Part shown: piece after piece, positions 33,723-54,000 of the stretch | Numbering within the stretch: position 1 is the first letter of the stretch | Layout of the letters: each line of letters starts with the position of its first letter | Notes under the pieces: model-generated | The model's database searches: none | What the model was told of the DNA's origin: nothing | The model's input: only the letters and a program-made list of their open reading frames with translations | Program-made: the position numbers and the translations under genes | Source of the DNA: Opitutaceae bacterium | GTDB lineage: Bacteria > Verrucomicrobiota > Verrucomicrobiia > Opitutales > Opitutaceae | Length of the DNA stretch: 64,000 bases | NCBI GenBank assembly: GCA_015075305.1 | Contig: JABTUS010000011.1 | Location: 124,001-188,000 of the forward strand | Direction: 5' to 3'

Positions 33723-34223
33723 CTAGATTTCCCCGGCGGACCTTATCTTTTCGATCAGCCGGGTCGTGCTGAAGCCGGGCAGGAAGGGGAGAAAGGTGAT
33801 CCTTGCCCCGGCCTCCTGCAACGCCTCGCGCTCGCCCTTGTCGAGTTTGTCCAGGGTGTAGTCGCCGGCCTTCGTGTAGATGTCGGGTTTCAGCGCCCGG
33901 ATCTCCCCTGTTAGTCGCGGAGAACGAAATATGACGATGCCATCGACGCATTCGAGGGCTCCCAGCGCGAACGCGCGTTCGCCCTCGGTCTGCACGGGCC
34001 GCTTCGGCCCCTTGAGCGCCTTCACGCTTTCGTCCGCATTGAGCGCGACGAAGAGCGCGTCCCCGAGCGAACGCGCCTGTTTGAGATGGTGAAGATGCCC
34101 CGTGTGCAGCAGATCGAAGACCCCGTTGGTCAGGACAAGCCTTCTCCCGCTTCGCCTGAGCCCGTCCCTCACCGCCACCGCCTGTTCGAGCGTGAAAAGC
34201 TTGGGATTCTCAAGGGGAGTCAT
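33723..34223 (-). CDS. rfaE2: D-glycero-beta-D-manno-heptose 1-phosphate adenylyltransferase (RfaE2-type)
   Basis: This enzyme activates heptose 1-phosphate with ATP to ADP-heptose for LPS core synthesis. The 166-residue product is the stand-alone cytidylyltransferase-like domain: LTNGVFDLLHTGHLHHLKQA (HxGH motif), VALNADESVKALKGPKRPVQ, FRSPRLTGEIRALKPDIYTK, AGDYTLDKLD, and the C-terminal STTRLIEKI. The kinase domain fused in E. coli HldE is absent here and would be encoded elsewhere. It lies 24 bp before purN and 50 bp after the HlyD gene; the link to the export cluster may be only positional, or may reflect envelope supply. Confidence 0.9.
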   Translation of the reverse strand: MTPLENPKLFTLEQAVAVRDGLRRSGRRLVLTNGVFDLLHTGHLHHLKQARSLGDALFVALNADESVKALKGPKRPVQTEGERAFALGALECVDGIVIFRSPRLTGEIRALKPDIYTKAGDYTLDKLDKGEREALQEAGARITFLPFLPGFSTTRLIEKIRSAGEI

Positions 34224-34273: not shown

Positions 34274-35125
34274 CTAGTTGCCGACGCTGGCCAGGCCGGC
34301 GCCCTTGGAGGCCCCCGGCGACTTGTCGTCGCCGGTCACCAGCACGGCGGAGAGGCCGGCGACGGCCTTTTCGGACGGGGCGACCTCGATGATGATGCGG
34401 AAGGTGCCGGATGTGGAGTCGACAATCGGATCGATGTGGCGGACCACGCCCTCGACGCGGGAATCGGCCTCCGGCGTGGTCTGGACCCGCAGGGCGACCT
34501 TCTGGCCAGGTGTGAAGCGTCCGAGCAGGGAGTAGTCTGCGAAGACGACGAAGCGAAGCGAGCTGGCGTCCACGACGCGGGCGATCGTTTCGAAGCGCTC
34601 GACCGCCTCCCCGACCGACTTGACGGTTTTCAGGAAAATGCCGTCGATGGGGGAGCGCAGCGTCCGGTACTCAAGCCTCACTTCCGCCATGGCCAGCATT
34701 GCCCTGGCCTGGTCGACACGGCTCTCCGTGACCTTGAGCATGGACCGGCTTTCCTCGAACTGCTTGTCGCTCGCGATCTTTTCCTTGAAAAGGGCCTCCA
34801 CGCGGGCGAAGTCGGTCCGGGCGCGCTCGTGGTCGGCCTCGGTGCCGCGCAGCGACGCCCTTGCCTGGGCGACCTCGGCCTCCTCCTGCCGCGCGTCGAG
34901 CCTCAGAATCGCCTGCCCCGCCACTATCCGGCTGCCCTCGGGAACCAGGATTTTTTCGACGATGCCCGCTGCCGGAGAGCTCAATTTGATGTCGGACCGC
35001 GGTGCGAGCACGGACCGCAGGGATCCGCGGCTGACCGTGCTCCAGGCGTCCGTGCCGGTCTGTGCGCCGAGGCCGGCGGTGATTGCGAGGAAAAGGAGAA
35101 TGGCGCCAGGAAGGGATCGCAGCAT
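34274..35125 (-). CDS. HlyD/RND-type periplasmic adaptor (membrane fusion protein)
   Basis: The ATG at 35123-35125 starts MLRSLPGAILLFLAITAGLG, a signal or anchor segment, giving 283 residues; the open frame extends further but without a credible start. The lipoyl-like hairpin is AGIVEKILVPEGSRIVAGQA, followed by coiled coil (RLDARQEEAEVAQARASLRG to AMLAMAEVRLEYRTLRSPID). The barrel region follows with GTFRIIIEVAPSEKAVAGL near the end. Adaptors join an inner-membrane pump or exporter to TolC. It is the fourth gene (counting exporter genes) of the minus-strand cluster, 14 bp after the GAF-HlyD gene. No inner-membrane RND pump adjoins. Confidence 0.85.
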   Translation of the reverse strand: MLRSLPGAILLFLAITAGLGAQTGTDAWSTVSRGSLRSVLAPRSDIKLSSPAAGIVEKILVPEGSRIVAGQAILRLDARQEEAEVAQARASLRGTEADHERARTDFARVEALFKEKIASDKQFEESRSMLKVTESRVDQARAMLAMAEVRLEYRTLRSPIDGIFLKTVKSVGEAVERFETIARVVDASSLRFVVFADYSLLGRFTPGQKVALRVQTTPEADSRVEGVVRHIDPIVDSTSGTFRIIIEVAPSEKAVAGLSAVLVTGDDKSPGASKGAGLASVGN

Positions 35126-35139
35126 GACGGAGAAGGTCC

Positions 35140-37404
35140 TCAGGAGAAACGCAGGCGGAGGAAATTGATGAAGTCGTGGAACAGGATGTAGGCGATGGGG
35201 CGTCTGCCGCATTCGAAGCTGGCGCGACCGGCAAAGCCCGACTTGAGAAGATCGAGCTGGCTGGGCTCCACCTTCAACGGCGCCGAGATCTGAAAGAGAA
35301 ACTCCCCGCGGGTTGTGTCGAGACCGTAGGCGAGCTGCTCCGAACTGGTGACCGCGAGCGGATAGGCCTGCGTGGGATTGGCTGCGAGGCGCACGGAGCC
35401 TTCGACGGGTCCGTGGCTTTGGAACCTCTTGTCGAGAATGCGCAGGTCCTGTTCGCGCACGTCTATCTGGACCTTCCAACTGGTGGGATCAATCACCTCG
35501 AGCACGCCCTCGCCGGGCCGCGGCACCTGGCCGATGCGGGCCGACAAGTTCTGTGCGCCGAGGACGATGCCGTCAAAGGGCGCGCGGATCGTCATGCGTT
35601 CCAAGTCGCGCTGAAGCTTTTCCAGCGCGGTGCGTGCGCGCGCCGTGGCGAGGCGGGCCACCTGCATGCGGATTTCGTCCTTGTCGCCGCGGGCGGCGTC
35701 CACCTCGACCAGCCCGCGCTCGACCTCCTGCTGGGCGGCGCGGATCTGCAGTTCGACGTCCGTCGTTTCGAAACGCGCGAGCACGTCACCCTTCCTGACC
35801 GCCTGGCCCTCGCGGACGTCGACTGACAGCAGGCGGGTCGCCGCGTAGGCGGCGAGTGACGTGCGTTCGCGGGGAAGGACTCTGGCGGCGCCCGTGACTT
35901 TGAATGAAATGGGCAGCGCCATGATGACCGCGATCACGAGTACCGGCAGGCCGAAGCGCGTCCACTTCTCCCTTCTTGGTGTATTGACAATCTTGTTACG
36001 CGCATTGATCCAGCGGCGCGCCATGCGCGCCGCGGGCTGGCGCTGCCAGTACAGGGCCGCGCCGAGGTTGCGCCCCGCCGAGATCGCGAGGTCGCGCATC
36101 TGCAGGATCGTCGAGTCGAGCTTCTCGGGTTTCTTGACTCCCTCGAAGAGCAGGATGCCGCGCACCCGGTCCTGCCGGTCAAACAGCGGCATCACCGTAG
36201 CCCAGTTCATCGGCACGGCGTCGAAATACTCGTTCACCTCGGCCGGTCGAGTTGCAACCTTGGCGGGATCGCGCTGCACCAGCGTCAGCTGCATCTGCGG
36301 CCGCGCCGGGCCGCCGGGCCGAGCGGGCTTGAGATTTTCCTGCTCCTCCCGGGGCGGATTGTCAGCTGTGGACGCGCCGACGGATACCGCAGCGTCGCCG
36401 TCAGCGGCGGCGGGCAGGGGTTGCTCCACGAGCTCGTCCTTGTGCCGTCCGTTCAACCCGTGGTTGCCGTTTGATCCATTCAGGGCCGGCTGCGGGGATG
36501 CGCCACCGGGCAGCGCCGTTCTCCGTTTCGCGGAGTTGGCGAGCGACATCTGTGTCAGCCGCTCGGCGAGGCGCTTGAGAATGACGGCCTGTTCGCTGCG
36601 TGGATGCGGACGGCGCAGACCGCTGGTTGCGCCCAGTTCGTAGTCCTGGTCGAGTCCGATCCAGTCCTCGGCCAGCGGTTCATCGCCGCGGCCCTTCGCC
36701 ACGAGCAGCGACACACGATCGCAGGCCACGGATTCGCGCGCGTAGTTGACGATGTGCCAGCCGATCGACTCCACATCGTTGTCGCCGGAAATTTCCTCGA
36801 GCAGTTTCGCGTAGGTGGAGACGCGGGTCACCTCGGCCGCGAGGTCGCCGCTGCGCCGCGCCTTGAGGTACAGCTCCACTTCCCCGCAGATCTGGCGAAG
36901 GATTGCGGCGCGCAACTGGCCCGCCTGCGCGTCGATCGGGATGAACCACACGTGCAGGACTCCTGAAACCACATTGCCGCTGAGAATCGGCACGAAATAC
37001 TGGTCGAAATCCGTCGAGTTGAAGAGCGACAGCTCTTCCGGCGCCGGTGCGTCCTGAGGCTGCAGCCCGGGCAGGTTGCTCGATGCCTGGAGCTTGGCGG
37101 GCAAGGTGACGGGATGCCCGGTCTCGGCCACCCGGTGGATGGCCTTGCGGAACGATTCCGCGAGCTCGGGCGAATCCTTCAAGTTGAGCGTCTCCCACTG
37201 GCTCGCCACCATCCGCTGAAAGCTTCTTCCGGCGAGCATCTCGTACGACAATCCCTGCGGGCGCAGGATTTGCAGGATGCACTCCGCGTGCGCCTTCAGG
37301 TACACCGGCAGGTCCGGCGATTCCTTCGCCAGTTGCGCCAGTCGGGCCGACACGTCGTTCAGTTGCCTTTGAACGTGTGCGGCGGCATTTGGATGAGCTG
37401 TCAT
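35140..37404 (-). CDS. GAF-domain protein fused to a HlyD-type adaptor
   Basis: The 754-residue protein has an N-terminal soluble part, with a GAF-like sensor around residues 210-340 (STYAKLLEEISGDNDVESIG, ACDRVSLLVAKGRGDEPLAE) and a second GAF-like piece near residues 400-455 (VMPLFDRQDRVRGILLFEGV). One membrane helix follows (FGLPVLVIAVIMALPISFKV, about residue 500). The periplasmic HlyD part has VREGQAVRKGDVLARFETTD, two long helices, TIRAPFDGIVLGAQNLSARI and FQSHGPVEGSVRLAANP. So a cytosolic sensory region is joined to a periplasmic adaptor, an unusual fusion. A Pro/Gly-rich linker (about 310-390) separates the parts. It may tune export activity to a signal. It is separated from the upstream LuxR gene by 127 bp with an inverted repeat. 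Confidence 0.8.
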   Translation of the reverse strand: MTAHPNAAAHVQRQLNDVSARLAQLAKESPDLPVYLKAHAECILQILRPQGLSYEMLAGRSFQRMVASQWETLNLKDSPELAESFRKAIHRVAETGHPVTLPAKLQASSNLPGLQPQDAPAPEELSLFNSTDFDQYFVPILSGNVVSGVLHVWFIPIDAQAGQLRAAILRQICGEVELYLKARRSGDLAAEVTRVSTYAKLLEEISGDNDVESIGWHIVNYARESVACDRVSLLVAKGRGDEPLAEDWIGLDQDYELGATSGLRRPHPRSEQAVILKRLAERLTQMSLANSAKRRTALPGGASPQPALNGSNGNHGLNGRHKDELVEQPLPAAADGDAAVSVGASTADNPPREEQENLKPARPGGPARPQMQLTLVQRDPAKVATRPAEVNEYFDAVPMNWATVMPLFDRQDRVRGILLFEGVKKPEKLDSTILQMRDLAISAGRNLGAALYWQRQPAARMARRWINARNKIVNTPRREKWTRFGLPVLVIAVIMALPISFKVTGAARVLPRERTSLAAYAATRLLSVDVREGQAVRKGDVLARFETTDVELQIRAAQQEVERGLVEVDAARGDKDEIRMQVARLATARARTALEKLQRDLERMTIRAPFDGIVLGAQNLSARIGQVPRPGEGVLEVIDPTSWKVQIDVREQDLRILDKRFQSHGPVEGSVRLAANPTQAYPLAVTSSEQLAYGLDTTRGEFLFQISAPLKVEPSQLDLLKSGFAGRASFECGRRPIAYILFHDFINFLRLRFS

Positions 37405-37443
37405 TCGAAACGGTTAAGGGATGATCGTCTTCCCTTTTTGCCA

Positions 37444-37467
37444 CCTGCGAAAGCCTAAAATCGCAGG
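37444..37467. promoter_or_regulatory. Inverted repeat between LuxR and GAF-HlyD genes
   Basis: CCTGCGA (37444-37450) and TCGCAGG (37461-37467) form a perfect 7-bp inverted repeat with a 10-base spacer in the 127-bp gap. It could be an operator for the adjacent LuxR-type regulator, or a weak terminator or attenuator splitting the cluster into two expression units. Confidence 0.45.
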
Positions 37468-37531
37468 GGAAGAATGCTCTAATGAAGGATGTTTGCGCAG
37501 AGGTGTGTGCTGTTTGGAATTTGAAGGGTAA

Positions 37532-38632
37532 CTACCCGGATCTGACGAGACCGATGAACTGAAGGCGGGTCTTTGCGCCGGCCTTGCGGAGAATGTTGCG
37601 AATATGGGTTTTCACCGTGGGGAGCGCAATCTTAAGCCGAGTGCCAATCTCGTCCGCGGAATGCCCCCTGAGAATGAGATCGGCCATCTGGACCTCGCGG
37701 CGTGAAAAGTCAAAGCGTTCGGCGAGCCGTGAGAGACTGGGAACCCCCTGGGTCTGCTGGGTGCTTGCGATCGACGACGTGAGCAGGAGATAGGGACGCA
37801 ATCCAAGCGTGCTTCGCATGGCCAGGTATCGTACCGCGCCGACCACGCGTTGTTCCTCGGAGATTTTTTTCGCAAGATTGACGACAGGGCCTTGCGAGAC
37901 GACGAGGCGACCGCCGGTGGGCGGCAGCTTGACATCGACCAGTGTGCGAAACGCTTCGAAGCAGGCCTTCTGCCAGACCTCGGGCAGTGCGGTGGAGCGC
38001 GGAAGCGAAAGCGACTGAGCCTTCGATCCATGCTCCCAGAGCATGAGGTGCTGGCGGAAGTTTCGGCTCTCGAAAAGCGGGCGCTGCTGGTTGTCGAGCA
38101 CACAGATGCCCTCCGGATGAAGATTGCTGACGAGCCGGAACAGACCGACCATGAACTCCTGCTCCTGCTGCTCGGCGAGCACGGTGAAGGCCTTGCGCAC
38201 ATGCGTGCCCGTCCAGGCAAGCAGCTCCAGGTCCGTCTGGTTGAATGGGCCGCGCTCCGGGCGGCGGAAGACAAACAGGATCAACGGTGGCGTCTGGGCG
38301 TCTCCGACCTGCAGGATCCGGCGAATCCAGTTGGGCCCGGGAATGAGCTCGCCTGCGAGCGTCTCGACAACCTGCGGGGTGAGCCGCCCGCCGGGAGCGA
38401 GCGATTCGATTCCCTGGCGGGCTGCCTGGGTCAGCAGGGGCCCTGTGGGCCTGACACCCTGCCCCATGAAAAGCTGGCGGTCACCCGCCTGAAAACTCGG
38501 CGGCAGGAAGATCCCCCAGGCGTCGATGGAAAGCTGCAGCCAGATCCTGCCCAGCGCCTGCTCAAAGCCCCGAAGTGTTCGATGCAGGCACAGGTCAACC
38601 AGGCTGTCGGTGAGCTGCTGCCAGTTGGCCAT
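37532..38632 (-). CDS. LuxR-family transcriptional regulator with N-terminal sensor-like domain
   Basis: The 366-residue product ends with a GerE/LuxR helix-turn-helix: FDFSRREVQMADLILRGHSA, DEIGTRLKIALPTVKTHIRN, ILRKAGAKTRLQFIGL. The N-terminal ~290 residues contain a GAF/PAS-like pattern (IWLQLSIDAWGIFLPPSFQ; NQTDLELLAWTGTHVRKAF; LVSNLHPEGICVLDNQQRPL). There is no receiver domain. It is embedded between the M50-HlyD gene (6 bp upstream in gene order) and the GAF-HlyD gene, so it very probably regulates the export cluster or its cargo. The ligand is unknown. Confidence 0.88.
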   Translation of the reverse strand: MANWQQLTDSLVDLCLHRTLRGFEQALGRIWLQLSIDAWGIFLPPSFQAGDRQLFMGQGVRPTGPLLTQAARQGIESLAPGGRLTPQVVETLAGELIPGPNWIRRILQVGDAQTPPLILFVFRRPERGPFNQTDLELLAWTGTHVRKAFTVLAEQQEQEFMVGLFRLVSNLHPEGICVLDNQQRPLFESRNFRQHLMLWEHGSKAQSLSLPRSTALPEVWQKACFEAFRTLVDVKLPPTGGRLVVSQGPVVNLAKKISEEQRVVGAVRYLAMRSTLGLRPYLLLTSSIASTQQTQGVPSLSRLAERFDFSRREVQMADLILRGHSADEIGTRLKIALPTVKTHIRNILRKAGAKTRLQFIGLVRSG

Positions 38633-38638
38633 GTGCCG

Positions 38639-40861
38639 TCAGTGGTGCGGCCGCCGGTAGCCGAGCAGACGCATCAGCCAGCGGCCGATCCGCGATGCGT
38701 AACTGGTTTCCCGTCCGGCGATGGTGACCTGGGCGCGCATGCCCTCGATTGTGAACTGATCCGGCCTTGCGTCGAGCTGCGCTTCCGCGAGGTAGATCGG
38801 ATAGTCGGGCATCTGACCCGGACGCGCACCTCCACTCAGGGGCACCGGACCACCGAACACGCTGAGCATGCCCGCGGTGTATTCATGAACCGTGGCGGGC
38901 TGTCGCGGCACGCTGCTGATGGTCGTCTCGAAACGGCTGCCGTCGGCTCTCCAGCGTCCGGTGACCTCGTTGCCGACATCGACAACTTCCGCCTCCGCCT
39001 CCGAGAGCGGAACGAGCAGCCGCAGTTTTGTGGGATCCACAATGCGCATGAGTATCGACGTTGGATCGGCATAGCGTCCGACGAGTTCATCCATGCGGCG
39101 CGACCAGACGACTCCATCGCGACCGGCGCGGATGACCAGGCGGTCGACATCGGACTGCGCACGCGCAACCTCCGATGCGGCGATGTCCATTGATTTGGCC
39201 GCCTCGGGCAGCGCTTCGCTGGACTTCCAGTTGGGTGTTGATTGCAGCGTGGCAAAACGCAGCCGCGCCCTGTCCAGATCATTTTGCTTCTGGAGAAGAT
39301 CCGCCACGAGGGAGGAGTTTTCCAGTCGCACCAGGACATCCCCGGCCTTGACGGACTGGCCGGTGGAAACCAGCACTTCGGTCACCATGCCGGTGACCTG
39401 CGGCGAAATGTCCTCCGCCCCGGCGGCGCTGACCACCGCCTGTTCCGACACATAGAACCGGGTCGGCACGGTGAAGAGCAGCAGCACGATCACCGCGAGT
39501 ATGCCGAGCGAGCGCAGGACGTACCAGCGCGTGGGGCCCGACTTGACGATGTGAGCTCCGGGACTGAACGCATCCATAAAAACCTTGATGAAGGGAAGAG
39601 CGACGAATGAACCCTCGACGAAAATTCCCAGGAGAAGCCCGATGTCATGCAAGCCATACGGCGCGAGTACGCGCGCAAAAATCTGCGTCAGCCCGTAAAT
39701 GATGAAGATCATGTACAGGTAGGCGAAGATGGCGTAGATGAGAAAAACGCTGCCCCGCGTGTCGGATGTCATCAGCGCCGCCTGCTGCCCATTGCGATAG
39801 CCGAGCAGCAGGCGCTGCAGGTGGTACGAGCAGTAGGCGATGGCCTTTGCACGCAGATTGGGAATCTCCAGCAGGTCGCAAACGACGTAATAGCCGTCGA
39901 AACGCATCAGTGGATTGGCATTGAACAGGAGTGTGTTGACGCTCGCAATCAGCATCGCGTTGAACGCGAGATTGCGCGCCACGCCGTCGGGAAAAAGCAG
40001 CCAGAGATGCGCCGCGATCGAGGCCAGGTTGAGTTCGACGAACACGCCGGCGATCGTCGTGTAGAGTTTGTGGCGCTTGTGCCGCATCATCCACGCGTCC
40101 GAAGCGTCCACGTAGCCGCAGGGCGTGAAGCACATGAGGCAGAAGCCCATCTCGTGCACCTCCCCCCCGAAGCGCCGGCAGGTCGTCGCATGCGCAAACT
40201 CGTGCATGCTCTTGATGAAGATGATCGTCACCCACACGAGGGCGAGATTGCTGGCGGAGAAGAAATTGATCCCGGGATTGGCAATCTCGTCGCGGTTGAT
40301 CGCCAGGCGCACCAGCGTGCCCGCGATGAAGAGCAGGCTCAGGGCGACGAACCAGCGGGTCCAGAAAAAGCGGACCGCGTGCACGACCTTGCCGAGCCAC
40401 GGGCTGGGATCGAGGAGCGGGACCTTGAAGAAAAGCACTCCGGAAACCACCTTGCCCCAGACCATGAGCCAGTGGTTTGGCCGGAGTTTTGCCTTGCGCG
40501 CCGTGTCGATGAACGACCGCGCATTGATGCTCAGCAGTCCGCCCGTGCCGAGCTGGTTGACGAACGTCGCGATGTCCTCGAGCGAGCGGTCCGAGTTGGG
40601 ATAATGCTCGAGATACGCGGCGTAGATCTCGCGCATCTTCCGCCGGCCGTCCATCAGGCCGACGATGTAGGCCTCCTCGGGCTGCAGGCGGAAATACGTG
40701 AGCGACAGCGGGTCCTTGACGACGTAGTAGTCCTCGAACTTGAAGAGCTGCCGGCGGATCACGAGGTCGACCCGCAGCGGGGCGGGCACCGACTCGGCCA
40801 TCATCAGCCATTCCGGTGAAACCGTCGGTGCGGGGGGAATCGTCGCCAGCGTGCCGCTCAT
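38639..40861 (-). CDS. Multi-pass M50-type metalloprotease fused to HlyD adaptor, with PqqD/RRE-like N-terminus
   Basis: The 740-residue protein has three parts. Residues about 38-112 (VVKDPLSLTYFRLQPEEAYI, VGLMDGRRKMREIYAAYLEH, LEDIATFVNQLGTGGLLS) look like a PqqD winged-helix, the fold that recognises leader peptides in RiPP systems. Several membrane helices follow, with the zinc motif HEFAH (H220-E221-H224, in KSMHEFAHATTCRRFGG) and the third-ligand motif NANPLMRFDGYYVV (Asp322), both as in M50 site-2 proteases. The C-terminal third is a HlyD adaptor: ISPQVTGMVTEVLVSTGQSV, KAGDVLVRLENSSLVADLLQ, a coiled coil, and RLVIRAGRDGVVWSRRMDEL. It overlaps the TolC gene by 4 bp (ATGA). The protein may recognise, process and hand over a substrate in one chain. 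Related to the peptide zinc metalloprotease group near bacteriocin and peptide export genes; the RRE call is inference. Confidence 0.85.
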   Translation of the reverse strand: MSGTLATIPPAPTVSPEWLMMAESVPAPLRVDLVIRRQLFKFEDYYVVKDPLSLTYFRLQPEEAYIVGLMDGRRKMREIYAAYLEHYPNSDRSLEDIATFVNQLGTGGLLSINARSFIDTARKAKLRPNHWLMVWGKVVSGVLFFKVPLLDPSPWLGKVVHAVRFFWTRWFVALSLLFIAGTLVRLAINRDEIANPGINFFSASNLALVWVTIIFIKSMHEFAHATTCRRFGGEVHEMGFCLMCFTPCGYVDASDAWMMRHKRHKLYTTIAGVFVELNLASIAAHLWLLFPDGVARNLAFNAMLIASVNTLLFNANPLMRFDGYYVVCDLLEIPNLRAKAIAYCSYHLQRLLLGYRNGQQAALMTSDTRGSVFLIYAIFAYLYMIFIIYGLTQIFARVLAPYGLHDIGLLLGIFVEGSFVALPFIKVFMDAFSPGAHIVKSGPTRWYVLRSLGILAVIVLLLFTVPTRFYVSEQAVVSAAGAEDISPQVTGMVTEVLVSTGQSVKAGDVLVRLENSSLVADLLQKQNDLDRARLRFATLQSTPNWKSSEALPEAAKSMDIAASEVARAQSDVDRLVIRAGRDGVVWSRRMDELVGRYADPTSILMRIVDPTKLRLLVPLSEAEAEVVDVGNEVTGRWRADGSRFETTISSVPRQPATVHEYTAGMLSVFGGPVPLSGGARPGQMPDYPIYLAEAQLDARPDQFTIEGMRAQVTIAGRETSYASRIGRWLMRLLGYRRPHH

Positions 40862-42441
40862 GGCATGACCTCGGGGCCGACATCGCGCCCTCCGGGCAGG
40901 GCGCCGCCGACCGTGTACTCGATCTGCGCCACCGTTGCGTTCAGCGTCAGGACCGCCTCAGCCCGGGCGTTCTCCGCGCGAAGAAGAACCTCCTCCATCT
41001 CGAGCACCTGCTGCAGCGTCGCCTGGCCAAGCTCGTATCCGCGTTTTGAATACGCGAGCGATTTCTCCGCCAGCACCCTCGCCTCCTCCTGCGCGGACAG
41101 CGAGGCCCTTGCGAGCTCGAGCCCGCCGTAGAGGTCGGCCACCTCGGTGCGCACCTTGAGGTCCATGTCTTCCAGCCGCACCTGGGAGATGCGCTGCTCG
41201 GCCTGGTAGGCCCGGGTGCGCGACCGCACGGCATTGCCGTCAAAAATCGGCCAGCGCCCGCTGATGCCGGCGGACCAGCCGTCGAGGTCGCGCTTGTAGT
41301 TGTAGTAGGACGAGCGGTAGCCATAGCCCGCATTGGCCTCGATCTTTGGAAAGGCGTCGCTTCTGACGGCCCTCACGACCGCATCGGCGATCTGGGTTTG
41401 AAGCTGGGCGGACTGCAGGTCCAGGCGGCGCGCGACAGCCAAGCTGATGGCTTCATCACGGGGCAGCTTGAATGAATCGGGCTCAAGCCGGCCGGAGAGC
41501 GTGAACGACGTCATTGAGTCCCCGGGCGGGGGCAGGTAGAGCTGCCGGGCGAAATCGATGCGCGACTGCTGACGGTCGCGCTGGGCCTTTACGATGTCGG
41601 CCTGCGCGAGACGAAGTTCGGTCTGGGCTCGCAGGTGATCGAGCTCGGTCTGTTCGCCGAGCTTCCAGCGGCGTTCCGTGAATTCGGCGATCTGGCGGAC
41701 GGATTCCTCGCGACGCCGGGCATTCGCGAGCGTGGCTTCACGAAACAGGACGGCCTCATAGTGCTGTTTGACCAGCGCCACCGTGCGGTAGGCTGCGAGC
41801 TGCAGGGCAAGGCGGGTTTGCAGTGTCTTCAGTTTCTCGCTTTTGACCGAGTTGGAAATGCCGCCGCCGTCGAAAAGGAGCTGCCTCAATTCCATGCGGA
41901 TGTCGTAGCTGCGGTCGGCCAGCGCGGTCCGCGGATTGGTGACATTCGGACCGGCATCGAGGGAGTTTGGATCCCGCCAGTCCTGTCCGCCGGTGACCGC
42001 CACCTGCGGTCGCCTGCGCGAGCCGGCCTCGACGGCGAGGTTGGTCTGCCGCTCGACCATCAGTTTTGCCTCAACCAGTGCCGGATTGGCGGCGAGTGCC
42101 CGGGAGATCGCGGTGTCAAGCGTCCAGACGTAGCCGGGTGCGGACAATTCGGGCGAGAGCCCAGGCAGGCCGCGCAAGGGAGCTGCGGGAGTTTCTTTGC
42201 GGAAGAAGATCCATCGGCGCCCCTGGCGGCCGCTCATTACGGCCTCAGGCCCTGCGTCGTCCCTGTGATCCGGAAGTATCTTCCTGAGCAACGATCGATA
42301 CCACGGCTGGCCCGGTTCAGCCGGGCCTTCCGCGGCCCTTGCCGTGATCGGCGTGGCAACGACCGCCGCGCATGCAATCATCAACGCCAGGCCATTCCCC
42401 AGCGTGGCTCCACGGCCTTTTGAAATCGTTCGCCTCAACAT
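40858..42441 (-). CDS. TolC-family outer-membrane efflux protein
   Basis: The 527-residue protein starts with a signal peptide (ALMIACAAVVATPITARAAE). OEP repeats follow: VWTLDTAISRALAANPALVE, KLMVERQTNLAVEAGSRRRP, and YGYRSSYYNYKRDLDGWSAG with GISGRWPIFDGNAVRSRTRA. The long coiled helices contain ESVRQIAEFTERRWKLGEQT and LDHLRAQTELRLAQADIVKA. TolC trimers form the channel through outer membrane and periplasm for type I secretion and efflux. It is the first gene of the export cluster and overlaps the next gene by 4 bp. A 215-bp divergent region upstream probably holds the promoter. Confidence 0.9.
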   Translation of the reverse strand: MLRRTISKGRGATLGNGLALMIACAAVVATPITARAAEGPAEPGQPWYRSLLRKILPDHRDDAGPEAVMSGRQGRRWIFFRKETPAAPLRGLPGLSPELSAPGYVWTLDTAISRALAANPALVEAKLMVERQTNLAVEAGSRRRPQVAVTGGQDWRDPNSLDAGPNVTNPRTALADRSYDIRMELRQLLFDGGGISNSVKSEKLKTLQTRLALQLAAYRTVALVKQHYEAVLFREATLANARRREESVRQIAEFTERRWKLGEQTELDHLRAQTELRLAQADIVKAQRDRQQSRIDFARQLYLPPPGDSMTSFTLSGRLEPDSFKLPRDEAISLAVARRLDLQSAQLQTQIADAVVRAVRSDAFPKIEANAGYGYRSSYYNYKRDLDGWSAGISGRWPIFDGNAVRSRTRAYQAEQRISQVRLEDMDLKVRTEVADLYGGLELARASLSAQEEARVLAEKSLAYSKRGYELGQATLQQVLEMEEVLLRAENARAEAVLTLNATVAQIEYTVGGALPGGRDVGPEVMP

Positions 42442-43220: not shown

Positions 43221-44552
43221 ATGAGTTCCCCCATTCTGTCGGTCGACAACGTCTCGAAAGACTATCGGCTTTGGCATGCACCGTCGGATCGGCTGATTGC
43301 ACCGATGCTGGAATCGATGGCTTCGATTCCGATGATGCCAGCTGCCTGGCGCGAGGGGATGCGCCGGTCCGCGGAAAAGCGGGCCCGTAGGTTTCATGCG
43401 CTCCATCCCGTATCTTTTGACCTGAATCGCGGAGAGAGCCTGGGGATCATCGGTCGCAACGGAGCGGGGAAAAGCACGTTGCTCCAGATCATCGCCGGCA
43501 CGCTGAGTCCCAGTACGGGGAAGGTGGCGTGCAGCGGTCGTGTTGCGGCGCTGTTGGAACTGGGGTCCGGCTTCAATCTTGATTTTACAGGACGGGAAAA
43601 CGTGCTGCTGACGGCGAGTCTGCAGGGAATGACCACAAGGGAGGCCGAGGACGCGCTGGCGGAGGTTGTTTCCTTTGCGTCAATCGGCGATTTCCTGGAT
43701 CAGCCGGTGAAGACTTATTCCAGCGGCATGATGGTGCGCCTCGCGTTTGCGGCCCAGACCATCCTGGAGCCCGAGCTGTTTATTGTGGATGAGGCGCTGG
43801 CCGTGGGGGATATCTTTTTTCAGGCGCAGTGCGCGCGTTTTTTCAAGGAACGCCTGGCGAATGGCATGACGCTGCTATTGGTCAGCCATGACCTGCCTTC
43901 GGTGAAGGCGCTTTGCAAGAACGCGCTCGTTCTGCATGAAGGACGGCCGGTTTTTTACGGACCCAGCGCCGAGGCGGTGAGTTATTTTCACGCGCTGCAC
44001 CAACCGGCGCGGCAGGTGGCGGCCGGCGCGACGGCACCCCGGCAGTCGCGATTGATGGAAAACGAGCGCCGCAACTGGCGGGAAGGGGCGTCGGAGGCAG
44101 GCTCGAGGACAGTCGAGATCGTGGCGGTGCGTCTGCTCGATGCGCAGGGCCGTCCGGCGTCGGTTTTTGAGCTCGGCGATGATGTTGTTTGTGAGTGCGT
44201 GGTGGAATCCACGATCGACGTGGCAGAGCTCCAGTTTTCGATGGAAGTGACCACGCGGCACAATTTTGTGGTTTTCGGCGTTTCGAGCTGCCATTTGGAC
44301 TTGCCCCTTTACCAAGCGGAGGCAGGGCAGCAATTCCTGGTGAGGTACAAGTGGACGGCGTCGTTGGGCGCTGGGGAGTACCTGATCGATCTGGCGGTGG
44401 GCATGGGGGACCGCGGGGATGGAGCGCCTTTGGCGCTGTTGCACAGGCTGGGGCATGTGGCAGCATTCAGTGTGCACCACGGTCCCTTCAAGCCCCGGTT
44501 TTTCGGTGTTTCCGATCTGAAACCCAGCATTGAAAAGACCGATTTTTCATAG
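43221..44552 (+). CDS. Wzt-like ABC transporter ATP-binding protein with C-terminal glycan-binding-type domain
   Basis: The 443-residue product has an ABC ATPase core: Walker A GRNGAGKSTLLQ, Q-loop region LLELGSGFNLDFTGRENVLL, signature TYSSGMMVRLAFAAQTI, Walker B ELFIVDEALAVGDIFF and H-loop LLLVSHDLPSVKAL. The C-terminal ~170 residues (SRTVEIVAVRLLDAQGRPAS; LGAGEYLIDLAVGMGDRGDG) match the Wzt C-terminal beta-sandwich that binds O-antigen or similar glycans before export. The usual membrane partner (Wzm) is not adjacent. It could act with a permease elsewhere. It neighbours the export cluster and the giant protein, but a role with them is not shown. Confidence 0.88.
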   Translation: MSSPILSVDNVSKDYRLWHAPSDRLIAPMLESMASIPMMPAAWREGMRRSAEKRARRFHALHPVSFDLNRGESLGIIGRNGAGKSTLLQIIAGTLSPSTGKVACSGRVAALLELGSGFNLDFTGRENVLLTASLQGMTTREAEDALAEVVSFASIGDFLDQPVKTYSSGMMVRLAFAAQTILEPELFIVDEALAVGDIFFQAQCARFFKERLANGMTLLLVSHDLPSVKALCKNALVLHEGRPVFYGPSAEAVSYFHALHQPARQVAAGATAPRQSRLMENERRNWREGASEAGSRTVEIVAVRLLDAQGRPASVFELGDDVVCECVVESTIDVAELQFSMEVTTRHNFVVFGVSSCHLDLPLYQAEAGQQFLVRYKWTASLGAGEYLIDLAVGMGDRGDGAPLALLHRLGHVAAFSVHHGPFKPRFFGVSDLKPSIEKTDFS

Positions 44553-45053: not shown

Positions 45054-48000
45054 ATGGCTAAACGCACAAAAAAAGCTAAAAACTCGCGTTCCAACCTTCG
45101 GGTTGAATCGCTCGAACAACGCCAGTTGCTCGCCAACGTTGTTGGCGGAGGCGTTGAGGTGTTGAGTGATTTCACTCACTCCAACGGCAACGTGTATGAC
45201 CAGGTCCTCATGACCGGTCCGAGCGTTACCGTAACTCCCGACCCCGGTCAGATCGTCCGGGTGTCGTTCCTCGATCAGGGTGGCGACATCGTGCAGGCGG
45301 AATTCGCCGGCAGTGGCACGATGCACATCACGCTTGAGGACCTCAAACGTGCCGGCGATGCCGGTTACCTCAACCCCAATCCCGCCCAGAATCTGCCCGC
45401 GGGCGGATACGTGCAGGGCTTGGCCACCATCACCATCGACAAGTCCGAGCTTTCGACGAACCTGAATATTTTTGCGGCCGGCAAGCTGCAGAATCCCGGG
45501 TTCTTCAATGACCCGAACAAGAATGGCGGCAACGGACTCGCCGACATCGCCCGTATTATTCTTGTCGGCAACGAGAAGAACAATGCCGGCTTCACCAACA
45601 TGGGCAGCATCATCGCGGGCAGCGCGGTGTTTTCGGCTGAGACGGGAGTCGTCGGTATCCGCGGTGAGAACGTTGCCGTTCAAGGCAAAGTCGTCATCGG
45701 CGACATCGATGCCAAGGGCTCCGGTGTTCCGACCCTGATGTTCAACTCGAACAGCCAGTTCCAGTACGTCAGCGTCCGCGGTGGCGATCTCCGCCAGTCG
45801 AACGGCACTTCGTTCGACAGCTTCGGTGGCGCCGCAGGAGGTCCTCCGGGCGGTTCACCGGGCAATGCTGTAAACCAGACCATCGCTGGCTTCAGCTTCT
45901 TCAACAGCACCGACGGCCAAGCCGCGAACTTGGACTTCCGTCCCGCGGTTCCAGTTAATGCCGCCGCCATCCGTCTCGCAGCCATTGAGCAGCAGACGCT
46001 GATGTCGGGCGACTGGACCTACGACTGGACCAATCCCCAGGCGGTCAAAGTCACCCAGAACGGCACGGATGTGTCGAAGTACTATGGTGGCGACTGGCTG
46101 GCGAAGGGTGGCATTCAGGCGAGTCTCGACTACGCCTTCGAGCGCCGCAGCTTCCTCGGTAATATCACCATCACCGGTGACCTGCCCGCTGGTTATGAAA
46201 TGAATCTGGCGGACGCTCGTGCGAACGTCACGTTCAACAATAACTTCTACGGCAGTCTCATTGTTGACGGCTTCGGTGCCAGCATCGACGGCACTCTTGA
46301 GATCAAGGGCAACCTCGACGGCGCGGTTTCTGTCAATGGTCTTGATCGCGCCACCGTCATGGGGACAATTCGTGACGGACAGCAGAGCACGCTCAATGCC
46401 CTCCTGGTCGGCGGCAGCACCGGACCGTTCACGGATGTGCGCGCTGAGGACATCAATTCGGTCACCATCCGCAATAACTTCTCCGGCATCATCAGCACGG
46501 ACGTTACCCGCGGCAATGCGTGGACTCCGTCGCAGCGCACCGTCGGTGGCGCCTACGTCGACGTCGAAGGCAAGATCGGCAATGTCTCGATCGGTTATGA
46601 CGCCGCTGGCGCATCGACCGGTGGCTCGATTGTCAATGGCACGATCCAGGGCATGTCGGGCATCGGCAATGTCAAGGTCGGTGGCGATATCTGGGGCTCG
46701 CCCGTCAATCAGGCGGTCTTTGTCACCCAGAGCAACCCCGGCGCGGCTCCAAATGACGTTGGTCGTTACGGTTCTGCAAATATTGGAACCATCGATGTCC
46801 GCGGTGATGTCGACCTCGACGGAATCGACACCCGGCTCATCCAGATCGGTTTGATGGAAAATGGAGGTACAGGCAATGGTACCTACGGGAACATCACGGT
46901 TCAGGGTCTGACGACCACGAACACGGTTCCCGGTGCCAAGATCGGCACGGAAACGCAGCTCATCCCGGGCAGCGAATCCTTCGTGCGCATCCTCTCGCCG
47001 TTCACCGACAATGGTTTCGTCACCAATCCGGCGCTTGGCCAGAAGCTGGTCACGAACTATGATCCGGATGGCGTTTCCGGCCCGCTCGACGACACCTACT
47101 TCGTCACGGCCAACGACGTCAAGGCTGGTGCCCAGGTCTATGATCTGAACTCCAAGGCCATGGTCGCCGCCAAGGCCGGTGATCGCGTGCCCGCCCTCGC
47201 CGGCGGGGCGCCCATCATCGATTCCTTCGGCAACGTCCTCTACCGCCAGAACACGGCTCTGTTCGAAGGCAAGACCCAGGTGGTCGATGTCTTCGGACCC
47301 CCGACCGTCACGGTGGTCAGCGGCAACCGCGGCAACCTCGACGGTGTGTACAATAACTTCGGTTCGATCCTCATCGGCGGACTCCTCGGAGCCCAGCAGA
47401 AGACGACCGGCAAGATCAGCATCACCGACAATGTCGACATGACATTCGGCGGCGTGCTGATCAATGCATCCGGAGACAACAACCAGGCCGTCATCGGCAC
47501 CGTTGGCACCATTGGTGAAATCACGATCAACAACACCGCCGGGGCCACAGCGGACCTCGTCGTTGGTGGTGTGATCGGATCACCGGCAGCCATCACCGCG
47601 ACCAACAGCGGCACGTCCCATATCGGACTCGCGGGCTTCAACGCCACGGGCTTCGAAGATGTGGTGTTTGGCCCTGGCAATGGCGGCTACGCCTTCCACG
47701 TCACCGGCATCGACAAGGGTGTCAATGTGACGACGGTCACGGGCGTCGGTGACGGCACCGGCACCGGCACGGTGTCGCCTTCGGTCACCTTCAACTCATT
47801 GATCGCATTGGACAACGGCACGAGTGAAGCCGCGCAGAAAGCGCTGCTGAGCATCAACACCGGCGCTGTCAACTCGCAGATCATCTTTAACAACAACTCC
47901 GGCATTCTCGTTGATGATGGTGGCAACACCGGCCAAGGCTCGCAGATTGGCGACATCAACCTGAGTTCGGATTATGTCCGCTTCAGCGGACAGCTCACGG

Positions 48001-51000
48001 GCCGCGCGTTCGGCAACATCACCCTCGCGGGTGGTGCCGGAATCAATTCCGGATCGGACACGGCGGTCAACTTCAACGGCACGATCAACGCCTCTTCCAT
48101 CGGAGCCATCACGGCCTCCGCCACATCGGGCGATGTCGTGTTCGCTCCGGCTGACATCAATGGCATCGGCACGAAGGGTTCGGTCAACGGTCTCACGCCC
48201 ATGGCGTCGATTGGTTCGATCGTACTCAATACGGCCGGCGCCAACAATGGTGGCGACATCACGTTCGGCAATGGCGCTCTCTATGACGCCAATGTCGGCC
48301 CGATCACCATCACTGCCGGTCACAAGCTGTTCGTCAACGAGGCGGGCACGGTGGTCGACAATCCCGGCCATGTGACCATCAACTATGGCACGACGGGCAA
48401 TATCGGCAACCTCAACGTCACCACCACGACGGGCAATATCAACAACGCCCTCGTGATCCAGGGAGACGCGGCCGACATCACCTACACCGCCGGTGCGGCC
48501 ATTGTCGACAAGCTCGACAATGCGATCGGTGGTCCGGGTGTCATCGGCGACCTCGTTCGTGCGGGCAGCATCAATGCTGACCAGACGATCTGGGGCAAAC
48601 GCGGTGTGACGACGTTCGAGACCTACGGCCAGAATGCGGACGGCTCCGTGAGGACGCTTCCCGAATTCACAGCTGGCGGCGTGACCTACAAGATCCTGCC
48701 CTCCGGCTCGATCGACGCCCGCCTGAATTACGCCGGCGGTTCCACCGCGACGGGTGATGCCTTCATCGCCAAGTCCGGTGCCGGCGGCATCAGCGTCGTG
48801 TACAATATCATTGGACACGATGACAACAACGACGGCGTCATGGCGATTTCCGAAATCGGCCATGGCGGCAATGTGAATGTCAGCAGCATTTCGGGTGACA
48901 TCCGGTTCGCCGGTGGCACCATCTTGCCTGACTACACGCATGTTGCCACGCTGGGCAATGTCGCTCTGAAGACCGGCAGCTATGCTCAACCGAGCGGCCT
49001 GCTCACGGGTGCTGAAATCGGCAACATCGATCTCGGCTTCAATGCGCTGGACACCCTGCTCGCCAATGCACCTGGCGGCGGTGGCGTGCAGTCCACGGGA
49101 GGCTTCGAAGGCCACGTGGGCAACATCTCGGCCACCACCTCAGGAGGCAATATCGCGTTTGGCGGCCTCTTCGGAGCATTGCAGAACGTCGGCGGCAATC
49201 CAGCCGCTGACTTCGCCAACCCGGGGACCTCCCGCTTCGACGGCAACGTCGGCACGGTAACCCTGAGCGCAGGCTCTGTGGCTCACACCGGCGGTGTAGC
49301 CGTGGGTAACATATCGACCTCTGAGGACGGCGTAGTCTTCAAGGCCAACCATGGCCTCGTGAAGGCGAGCGTCGTCGATGTTGGCACCATCGATGTTGGA
49401 TTCTTCTCAGATGGCTGGCGCATGCCGACCGGCAACAGCTACGAGTTCAATGCGGAGCAGGGTCCGATCGATGCGTTCGTTGGATCCACCTCCTATGACG
49501 CCAACAACAACGGTCTGATCACGGCCAATGAGTATGGTCGCGCAGGCGACATCGCGATCGTCAGCAAGGGTGGCAACGTCTCCCTTAACTTGGGCTCTCA
49601 GGCATATAGATCGAGCCTTGAGCAGTCGATGATCGGCAATGTCACGGTCAACAACCAGGCGTTCGTTGGCGTGAAGAACGGTGCCACCGATACCATTGGC
49701 ACGGGTACGACCGCACTCGGCAGTGCAGTCGCCGGTGCAGCTGGCAACATCACGATCGCCGGCGTTGCTCAGGTCGGTGCCGTTGGCAACCTCGTTGCCA
49801 ACACCAATACCGGTCTGATCACGCACAGCGGTGTCTTCGGCGACCTTGGCACCTCGACCTTCACGACAACGTCCTACTCGGACACTGACACGGATCCGAA
49901 TTCCACGGCTGAAGCTCCGGTTCTGCTTGGAAGCGGCAATATCCAACTCGGTGGCGGCTTCGCAGTTGCAGAGGCCGCTGCTCTCATCGTCAACGGCAAA
50001 CACGGCACCTCGACCTACACGGTTGCGGAAGACGGCACGATCATGGGCACCGCCTACTACGGCGGCGCTGCGGTCGGTGCATCGTCGCTGGTCACCAACT
50101 CGGTTCGTGGCAATACCAGCCTCTCGATCTGGGCGCAGGACTACGACGCCGACGGAAGCGGCAACATCACCGCCAGCGAATATGGCACGTTCGGCTCGAG
50201 CACACTCAAGACCACTTCCGGTGGCGATGTGACGCTCCAGCTTGGCACGGACCAGAACAACGCTGCGGTGCTTGCGAAGAACCTCGTCCCGCAGTTCACG
50301 TTCGGCGACGTCGGTGTCACGGTGGCTGATCGCTACACGAGCACCTCCGCCACGGCGGCGGACGTTCTCGCGGATGCGGCCAACATCACGATCACGGGTG
50401 TGGGCGCTGATGCCACCAACGCAGCCGCTTTCGGTCCCTACACGGGCAACCGCGGCAACGTCGGCAACATCACCGCGGGCACGGTCCAGGGCAACATCGT
50501 GCTGAACGGCACCTTCGGCGGTCTGGGCAATCAGAACCTGACGATCACCCGTTACCTCGACGATATCGGAGCCAACGACAAGACGTTCGCTGGCAATCTC
50601 ACCTACAGCCCGACGGTTCTCGGCACGCATGGCACCGCCACGCTGCGCACGACGAACCTCGGTGCGACGGGCACGGGCACGATCACCGGCGGCGCCATCA
50701 CCGGCGTCGCCACCTTCGGCGGTGCGGCGGCCAATGCGGTCTCCGTTGACGCCAAGACCGAGCGCGCCAACATCAACCTCGATGTCATCGCCCTCGGCTA
50801 TGACATCAATGGCGACGGCAAGATCACCGACGGAAGCGCAAACAACGTTCCGGGTGACTTGGAATTCGCCAGCGTTGGCAACGTACTGGCGGAATCCACG
50901 TCCGCGGGTGACATCACCCTCGGCCTGGGCATCGCCACTGCGGATGGCTCGAAGATCGGTTCCAAGATCGGCAATGTCACGGCCGTTTCCGATGACGACA

Positions 51001-54000
51001 TCTACAAGGTTGTCGCGAATGGGAAAGACACGGTGGTCGACGTCGGCAACGTTACGGTCAAGGGCAAGTCTCCTGCGACGAACTTCAGCGCAGGTTCGAT
51101 CGGCACGATCGGCATCACCGTCAGTACCGGTGACGCCACGCTGACCGGCAACTTCGGCTCCATCGCCGGAGTGACGATCAACACCGGCACCTATACCGAC
51201 GCTGACATTGGCGGCGGAAATCCGGGTGTGGCCTTCGCGGGTGACATCATCCTCGGCAATAACACTGCCGGAGACAATACCTTCGCGGACGTGACCGGTT
51301 TGACCACCTTGAACATCGCAGGCTCCACAGGCGCCTCGGCGTTTACGGTGTACGAAATGGGCACGATCATGGGTGAGGTCTTCAGTGCAGGCTCAGGTGT
51401 TGGCTCATGGACGCTGACCGCAGCCCGCGGTGGAGCAACCGCCGCAACGGCGACCGCCAACGGTGCCTCGGGCACCGCGATCGACGTCAACTTCGTCGCC
51501 GGCTTCGATGCCAACGACGGAGATGCGAGACCGGACACCGGCATTGACACCGGCTCCTTCGGCGACATCACCGCGACTTCGACGTTCGGTGATGTCATCA
51601 TTGGTGTTGGCGGACGCACGTCCGGCTCCACGATTGGCAATGTCACGGTTTCGACGGGCTCATCCATCGTTGAAGTCGGCGGCGCGGACAAGTTCACCCA
51701 CGGCAGTGCGGAAATCCAAGGTCTGTCCAGCTTCCCTACCGAGGGCACGGACAAGAAGTTTGGAACTGCCGATGACCTGCTCCTCTTCGCAGGTACGGTT
51801 GGAAATCTGTCGGCGACGACAGCCTACGGCAGTGCGAGCATCACTGGTGACTTCAATGCCACCGGAGCGATCAGCCTCACGGCCGGCGCGAAGGTTGACG
51901 TTGATACAAACACGGCGATTACCACCGAGGATCCCGTCGTCGCCTTCGCGGGTGACGTCTTCCTCGGCACGGGTGCAACCCCCGTCTACTTCGGTGGCAG
52001 CACCGGAGCGATCACGCTCAAGGCGGTTGACACGTCGGTTCTTGCAGCCGGCCTCGCTGGCAAGGCGGGAACTGTGGCCAACCTCGGCAACGCCTCGGCC
52101 AACGCGTTCTTTGCAGGCGCGGCAGGTACGTTCAATGCGACCACAGACCGCGGCACGATCGACGTCGATCTCGAACTCGGGTTCGACAAGGACAACGCTG
52201 ATCTCGATGGCACTCGCTCGACGGGTGAAGACACCGGCACCATGGGCGCAGTCGCGCTGGCCAGCACGGATGGCAACATCCTGGCCACGCTCGACAGCAC
52301 CACGACGGGCTCCACCTACGGCGCGGTTGTCATCACGACGGGCTCCACCATTACGGCGGTGTCCGGCGCTGACAACATCATCGCCCAGGGCAACATTACC
52401 ATCGACGGCGACAACGATGCCGAAGGCAACGGTAACGTCGGCACCATCACCTCGCTCACGGCCACGGCTGCGACGGGCAACATCATGTTGTCCGGCATCC
52501 AGGGGAACGTGGGTCCGGTGACATTGACTACGGGTTCCAACATCGACATCGACTCCAATTCGTCGATTTCGGGTGAAGACCCGATTGTCAACGTCGCGGG
52601 TGACATCACCCTTGGTCTGACGGTCCGCCGCAATCACGGCCCGATCGTCGCGACAGCGGGTGACATCGCCACGGCCGGCCTCGCGGCTGGTCCGACCGGC
52701 GACATCACCGGCAACCTCACGTTCAATGGCACCCTCACGGGTGGCACGAACTCGTTCACGGCCACGACGCAGCAGGGCAACATCAACGTGGGCATTAACT
52801 CGCTAAAGTATCTTACGGTCGCGGGCGACACTGGCGTCACGGCCAACAATACCACCACGAACACGGACGACTACGTCGGTGCGGTTGGCGACATTGTTGC
52901 GACGAGCCTCTACGGCGACATCACGATTGGCCTCACGACCGACAGCGTTGCCAAGATTGCTGGTACAGACGCGATTCGCTTCGCATCGATCGGCAATGTC
53001 ACGGCAACGACGGGTGCCAGCTACCTGCCCCAGGCGGGTCCGGCAAACGACGTTGAGCAGCTCCGCGGCGATATCTCCATCGGCGTTGGCAGCATCTCGA
53101 ACGGTATCCTCGGCAATGTAACGGCCAACACGACCACGGGCAACATCGTCTTCGGTACGGGTGGCACGTTCAACAATGTCGTCGGCAATGTCACCCTCAC
53201 GGCTGGCAGCTACACCGACACGACGTCGTACAAGGCCGGCAACATCACGTTCGGCGGCAGCTATGCCACGACCAACAACAATGCTGGCGACTTCGACACG
53301 ACCCTTGGTGCGGTGACTCTCATCACCGGTGGTGCGATTGACAACGGCGGTGTTGGTGCTGCGGGCAACATTACCCTCGGCGTCAACTTCGGCGGTGCCT
53401 GGACGGACGCTGGAGTTGTCGGAACCATCGAAAGCGGTGAGCAGGCGCTCTTCACGGGCGGCGCGTTCAACGCGACGGTGACCGATGGCCAGATCGGCGG
53501 TGGCATCTCTGCTGCTCCTGGCTTCGGCGCCACCCTGCCGGTCACATCTCTCAAGTCCACCGGAGGTTCAACCTCCGCTGGAACGGGCGATGTGAACGTC
53601 GCTGGCACGGGCTCGTTCGCGAGCGTTGCTTCGTTCAACATCGAGACGGTCGACGGCGATGCGGTTTTCGGTGGTACCTGGGAAACCCCGGCGGTCACCT
53701 CGTTCAACGTCACGAGCGGCAAGGGTACGGCTGCCTTCGCGGGCCAGCTCATGCTCGACACGCCGAATGCGACGAACTTCAACTCGGTCAACGCCAAGGT
53801 CCAGGATCTCATGGTCTGGGCGAAGAACGGAGATGCGTCGATGGTCCCATTGGCGATCCTCGGTGCCAATACACTGAACCGCCCGAACCTGGGTGTCGCC
53901 GATGACAATCGTACGTTCGTCCTCGAGAACATCACGTTCAAGGCGGCGGGTACGGGTGGCATTGCGGGCACCTCAGCCATCCTGGGCCAGATCGGTGGCG

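Follow-up and report, generated by a model that had tools for sequence, protein, structure and literature searches.

In 2015, Kamneva, Poudel, and Ward described loci in which a secondary SecA_DEAD gene lies with M50, GAF, HlyD, and, in some cases, OEP genes (PMC4452313). They proposed that these loci function in secretion, SecA serving as the motor and M50 forming the passage across the membrane, and called the broader role of the secondary-SecA loci unknown (PMC4452313). A separate literature concerns the motif RRLxxExLExRxLLA, in print since 2004 and considered likely to be a new type of N-terminal signal for export. In Tuwongella immobilis it is carried by 8 of the 10 longest proteins, and the proteins that bear it are likely exposed at the cell surface (PMC8567305). 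We found no exporter for this LEPR-type signal named in the parts of the literature that were searched, and the search, which covered mostly open-access articles, returned no paper linking the signal to M50/GAF/HlyD loci. In peptide systems, the M50 enzyme EpeP is believed both to cleave its own peptide and to export it, and lasso leader proteolysis needs an RRE (PMC10885120).

Here we analyzed a 64,000-nucleotide stretch of an Opitutaceae genome (contig JABTUS010000011.1, positions 124,001 to 188,000), referred to below as the window. A sequence-only reading had proposed that five genes in it form an undescribed export system. Loci with M50, GAF, HlyD, and OEP genes and a secondary SecA were, however, already published in 2015, and a wholly undescribed locus was therefore rejected (PMC4452313). 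The unit in the window is a SecA-less branch of that published locus type. What is new, as far as our searches go, is the cargo link between the published orphan export signal and the RRE-M50 protease.

Organization of the five-gene unit

The unit spans positions 34274-42441 of the window, and all five of its genes lie on the minus strand. They encode a TolC-family outer-membrane channel of 527 aa (40858-42441; PF02321 OEP, E 1.9e-57; TIGR01844, 127.7 bits, under the cut-off of 225), an RRE-M50-HlyD fusion of 740 aa defined by profile matches and an AlphaFold model (38639-40861), a LuxR-type regulator of 366 aa (37532-38632; PF00196 GerE at residues 309-360, E 1.4e-10, with no family assigned to the N-terminal part), a GAF-like/HlyD protein of 754 aa (35140-37404; HlyD_3, E 1.1e-10), and a third HlyD adaptor, HlyD3, of 283 aa (34274-35125; TIGR01730, 143 bits, over the cut-off of 94.9). 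In this order the genes are spaced by -4, 6, 127, and 14 bases, the TolC and fusion genes thus overlapping by 4 bases. The start of HlyD3 was revised to give 283 aa, as the raw 401-aa ORF begins too early, and the protein has a hydrophobic stretch at its N-terminus. Downstream of HlyD3 in the window is a cytidylyltransferase-like gene (33723-34223). In relatives of the window, the gene directly after HlyD3 instead encodes a second, smaller leader-bearing family of 430-512 aa (L038:17391-18842, L040:5469-6758, L043:9999-11294, and others).

This gene content agrees with the sequence-only reading, which had also stated that the unit holds no ABC ATPase or RND pump. Indeed, no ABC, RND, or SecA gene was found inside 34274-42441, yet a Wzt-type ABC ATPase gene adjoins it. 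The GAF-HlyD fusion of the same reading held up for its HlyD part and by profile kinship, but not for GAF by Pfam. No GAF domain was detected by Pfam in the window protein, which has one strong hydrophobic stretch (residues 481-507), and GAF_3 was matched in two of eight clade members. Against GAF-HlyD relatives the window protein scored 99.9% in hhalign (E 4e-33), and one such relative, from locus L047, matched GAF with an E of 2.6e-7. Because of this profile similarity, we call the window protein GAF-like.

The RRE-M50-HlyD fusion

The protease and the adaptor form one 740-aa chain, as had been claimed. The M50 membrane metalloprotease part covers approximately residues 130-432 (39566-40474, minus strand; NF041824, 174.4 bits), and the HlyD-type periplasmic adaptor part approximately residues 466-720 (38702-39466, minus strand; PF16576, E 1.5e-12). 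Both motifs noted earlier are present, HEFAH at residues 220-224 and NPLMRFDG at 316-323, so that the HExxH and the NPLxRxDG-type motif of M50 enzymes lie inside the membrane domain, the hydrophobic stretches of the fusion spanning residues 132-473. HExxH occurs upstream of N-x-NPL-x-[RK] in 81 of 81 frames, which were chosen by the latter motif.

PF02163 matched the fusion with 22.9 bits, under its cut-off of 27.2. The match to NF041824, the daptide metalloprotease model, spans residues 48-411 and lies under the cut-off of 300, which was exceeded in none of 288 genomes of the window's phylum. All 43 homologues matched both NF041824 and NF058609 (YydH/LiaK) at E≤1e-3, and the fusion falls under the curated cut-offs of both. 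A daptide or epipeptide biosynthesis locus was rejected on these cut-offs and on the neighboring genes, which are export genes.

The N-terminus of the fusion, as judged by profile and predicted fold, is an RRE/PqqD domain (residues 34-106; 40544-40762, minus strand). PF05402 (PqqD; cut-off 23.4) gave 22.0 bits with the whole fusion and 25.6 bits with the N-terminus alone, and among 35 homologues it reached E≤0.05 in 25. The hydrophobic stretches start after approximately the first 125 residues. The domain is confidently predicted to fold as strand-strand-strand-helix-helix-helix (pLDDT 88.1); the AlphaFold model of the fusion has a pLDDT of 84.0. In Foldseek, the domain's best six rows were TbiB1 and TfuB1 with bound leader (probability 1.00, E 0.005-0.03), followed by SuiB and a sactipeptide enzyme; E values ranged overall from 0.005 to 0.17, and no row reached E≤0.001. 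All of these proteins carry RREs. A profile search of the PDB with the RRE gave weak matches to five chains at E≤1 (E 0.011-0.79), namely, PqqD, TfuB1, TbiB1, PaaA, and a lysine methyltransferase. Searches with the whole fusion found adaptors only, both by sequence in the PDB and by Foldseek, where the best rows were MacA, MexA, AcrA, and ZneB. The PqqD/RRE likeness put forward in the sequence-only reading was thus borne out by profile comparison and by structure prediction.

Among 128 aligned rows, the RRE residues D50, P51, and R58 are conserved in 120, 112, and 119, respectively. Position 103, in an RRE helix, is Q in 12 of the 13 rows of the window's clade and F in 14 of the 15 rows of a clade associated with a different leader (the LF-type, see below); judging from the alignment, this position is a possible switch for leader type.

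Relatives of the unit and their SecA genes

Among the best 80 of 581 matches, the protease, GAF-HlyD, and HlyD genes recur together in Verrucomicrobia, Planctomycetes, Proteobacteria, and others, the closest named kin of the window being Opitutaceae MAGs of the Verrucomicrobia. The same gene set is found in many genomes, and the arrangement is therefore not due to chance. In one branch, the next gene encodes a SecA-like ATPase of approximately 670 aa, for which two representatives scored 277 and 322 bits with SecA_DEAD. In most of the Planctomycete loci examined, TolC lies away from the protease, and in some the third adaptor carries WD40 repeats beside the HlyD domain (L086:3107-5278).

In 130 loci, counted with thresholds set in this analysis and with many loci ending at contig ends, the protease had nearby a SecA-like gene in 44, a LuxR gene in 11, and a LEPR-type frame in 35. 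Nine loci were left out of these counts and of the tree, six as duplicate contigs (L062, L063, L064, L066, L074, and L123) and three (L057-L059) as short contigs of the same genus. In L146, L158, and L159, the LEPR frame is short, at 136-220 aa, and scores 14-20 bits. The LuxR protein family is present in the window and 11 other loci, and LuxR-type loci had a LEPR-type frame in 11 of 11 cases.

In a protease tree obtained by a quick search and carrying long-branch warnings, the window falls within a 13-row clade (support 99) nested in a 16-row SecA-less clade (support 100). A LEPR-type frame lies nearby in 15 of these 16 rows; the remaining locus, L045, is cut short. No short secondary SecA was found in 15 window-type genomes; a single long SecA is encoded in 13 of them, and the search yielded no SecA in the other 2. 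In eight genomes of the other type, a short SecA was present in six (with a second fragment in G022), and G035 and G036 had the long form only. The window's own 4.87-Mb genome contains a single full-length copy of the fusion and one SecA_DEAD gene, a 999-aa frame on a separate contig.

The giant neighbor and its leader

On the plus strand beside the unit, the Wzt-type ABC ATPase gene (43221-44552; ABC_tran, E 1.4e-21; Wzt_C, E 2.3e-20) is followed by a gene for a giant repetitive protein of 3415 aa (45054-55301, plus strand), the proposed cargo. The giant starts MAKRTKKAKNSRSNLRVESLEQRQLLANV and matches our leader profile A2 with an E of 5.6e-10. Its leader motif, LRVESLEQRQLLA, occupies residues 15-27 (45096-45134, plus strand) and corresponds to the consensus RRLxxExLExRxLLA without its two arginines. 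No hydrophobic stretch was found in the first 300 aa.

The link to LEPR-XLL proteins that the sequence-only reading had suggested stands for relatives of the giant but not for the giant itself under the existing models. NF012209 (LEPR-XLL, cut-off 17) gave no match at E≤1, and PF07595 (Planc_extracel) gave 13.6 and 16.2 bits, under the cut-off of 25.5. Relatives in L046, L047, and L052 pass NF012209; the leader-bearing proteins of L044, L161, and L168 fail it.

A second leader, M-x-x-LEDRILFDGAA (LF-type), opens large frames in some of the protease loci that have no LEPR-type leader. It was present in 7 of 22 loci inspected (L053 and loci in the range L156-L177), and none was found in the 2,281,432 residues of the remaining loci. 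DUF4347 occurs behind both leader types, for example, in L047 for one and in L161 and L168 for the other. Leader matches also fall on enormous open frames of 18984, 19216, and 20466 codons (G028:C1:3960268, G091:C1:3411917, and G088:C142:81997, respectively), which rank among the longest bacterial frames known to us.

Co-occurrence of leader and protease

We surveyed protease and leader profiles in the same 288 genomes of the window's phylum. The protease was scored by NF041824 at E≤1e-10, and leaders were scored at E≤1e-3 with profile A2 (24 LEPR-type leaders, all from near a protease) or A6 (7 LF-type rows). The protease was present in 68 genomes. The LEPR-type leader was found in 20 genomes, all 20 with the protease, and the LF-type leader in 31, of which 30 had the protease. 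Taken together, either leader occurred in 50 of the 68 genomes with the protease as opposed to 1 of the 220 without it (Fisher p 1.8e-39). Removal of the 10 known profile-source genomes, with further source genomes possible among the 288, left 40/58 versus 1/220 (p 4.6e-33). These p values are too strong because the genomes are related. In a set of 76 relatives, the leader was found in 19/23 versus 1/53 genomes (p 4e-13), a result that is partly circular because 13 of the 76 are sources of profile A2. Within the window's family, the leader was present in 10 of 10 genomes with the protease and in 0 of 16 without. Planctomycete genomes had the LEPR leader in six of eight cases at E≤1e-3, a set without a protease-free comparison group.

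Leaders also lie close to the protease gene: within 15 kb in 14 of 33 LEPR places and 19 of 44 LF places, the other 19 LEPR places being farther away or on another contig. In G080 and G083, three proteases and three leaders each are paired within 15 kb. The leader thus tracks the protease strongly, by exclusive co-occurrence and by proximity. The sequence-only reading had named a lack of RRE/PqqD similarity and of such co-occurrence as grounds for refutation, and both of these grounds were contradicted.

Leader type also matches one protease clade. A clade of 15 rows (SH-aLRT support 100) represents 14 genomes, and all 14 are LF-type. No genome of the 288 carried both leader types at E≤1e-3, although G078 combines the LEPR leader with a weak LF match (E 0.0019). 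Relaxing the LF profile to E≤0.01 adds G078 and G097, the latter without a protease.

Neither leader was found at E≤1e-3 in 18 of the 68 protease genomes. Conversely, a leader was found without any M50-type match in G136 (94% complete) and G061 (82% complete). The leader frames of these exceptions lie on contigs 60 and 68 of G061 and contig 87 of G136; either a contig is missing or the exception is genuine. PF07595, tried as an independent leader detector, gave matches at E≤0.05 in 14 genomes of the 288. Every match was under its cut-off and only 4 of these genomes have the protease, so that this model provides no support for the link.

ABC genes and the energy source

A Wzt-type ABC gene lies near the protease in 5 of the 11 LuxR-type loci, and in L044 (6448-8725) an ABC ATPase and an ABC2 permease occur together near the protease. 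The genome from which the window comes also encodes a Wzm-like permease adjoining a second leader-bearing protein of 472 aa (LEARALF; L178:7229-9592). A glycan exporter seems tied to the leader-bearing proteins. For the window branch, ordinary SecA, the Wzt/Wzm-like exporter, or the proton motive force may supply the energy. The earlier suggestion that export proceeds without the usual ATPase stands for the unit but is less certain for the mechanism, given the SecA-like genes in 44 of 130 loci, the genomic SecA, and the adjoining ABC ATPase.

Proposed mechanism and alternatives

We consider it probable that the unit represents the branch lacking SecA within a dedicated export machinery, which selects giant surface proteins by a short non-Sec N-terminal LExRxL[LF] leader. 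The cytosolic RRE domain would capture the leader, and the M50 membrane domain would cut it, form part of the inner-membrane passage, or do both. The HlyD part of the fusion, the GAF-like/HlyD protein, and HlyD3 would together bridge the periplasm to TolC, through which the cargo would leave the cell; LuxR probably controls expression. A broader proposal, on which we are nearly evenly divided and lean slightly against, is that of a distinct secretion class: RiPP-like leader recognition by RRE and M50 would select megadalton surface proteins by a short non-Sec N-terminal tag and pass them to an HlyD/TolC conduit, with SecA as an optional motor missing from entire branches. Leader and reader would have diversified in parallel, giving two types or more (among them LExRxLL and LEDRILFDGAA).

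It is unlikely that the giants cross the membranes by some other means and that the RRE-M50 part only trims or anchors them, in the manner of a sortase or rhomboid, with HlyD and TolC serving as a scaffold or exporting the leader. M50 enzymes are proteases, and the giants are much bigger than the normal cargo of tripartite pumps, which favors such an arrangement; the conservation of TolC and three adaptors alongside the protease, however, argues against it, as does the absence from the giant's first 300 aa of any hydrophobic stretch usable by Sec. Quite unlikely, too, is an ABC type I system in disguise, powered by the Wzt-type ATPase with a Wzm-like permease encoded elsewhere. The adjoining position of the ABC gene and its recurrence in 5 of 11 LuxR-type loci would fit, as would the ABC2 permease that lies between ABC gene and protease in L044 and the Wzm-like gene beside the second leader-bearing protein. 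Yet four LuxR-type loci (L040-L043) have no ABC gene in the DNA covered there, and Wzt_C is a mark of glycan exporters; the genes around the permease in L178 are, by eye, of glycan type. A glycan exported alongside is a simpler account of the ABC genes.

Protease and leader are both patchily distributed (68 and 51, respectively, of the 288 genomes surveyed in the phylum), as would be expected if the two merely shared a lifestyle or gene islands. We regard this as very unlikely, since the correlation concerns short N-terminal tags rather than entire proteins, the tag type agrees with a protease clade, and G080 and G083 each pair every protease copy with a single leader. A dedicated exporter reading the leader remains our preferred account. 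It joins an orphan signal of 2004, of which Studholme is reportedly the source for Planctomycetes, to a secretion-like locus of 2015 that lacked a known cargo, and it names the RRE as the candidate reader. The signal is borne by proteins that are among the largest in Planctomycetes and Verrucomicrobia. With signal and locus joined and a reader domain named, both are open to direct testing; if the account is true, the leader recognition of peptide natural products is also used to export giant surface proteins.

Comparison with known systems

The loci of Kamneva et al. resemble the window in grouping M50-HlyD, GAF-HlyD (in the window, GAF-like/HlyD), HlyD, and, often, OEP genes, whereas the window branch lacks a secondary SecA and carries a LuxR gene; the excerpts of that paper used here name no cargo, leader, or RRE for them (PMC4452313). 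PF07595 and LEPR-XLL describe the short N-terminal motif found here, likewise on giant proteins of the cell surface, although the window giant falls under both PF07595 and NF012209, unlike the relatives in L046, L047, and L052, which pass NF012209. With type I secretion (HlyB-HlyD-TolC), the unit has HlyD adaptors and TolC in common. The type I signal is C-terminal, whereas the signal proposed here is N-terminal, and the unit contains no ABC exporter. RiPP leader proteases (daptide NF041824, YydH/LiaK NF058609, and the lasso RRE) share with the fusion the RRE fold, the M50 core, and, as proposed here, a leader-type substrate. Here, in contrast, the protease is fused to HlyD and lies in an operon with TolC, and its proposed cargo is not a peptide but a protein of thousands of residues.
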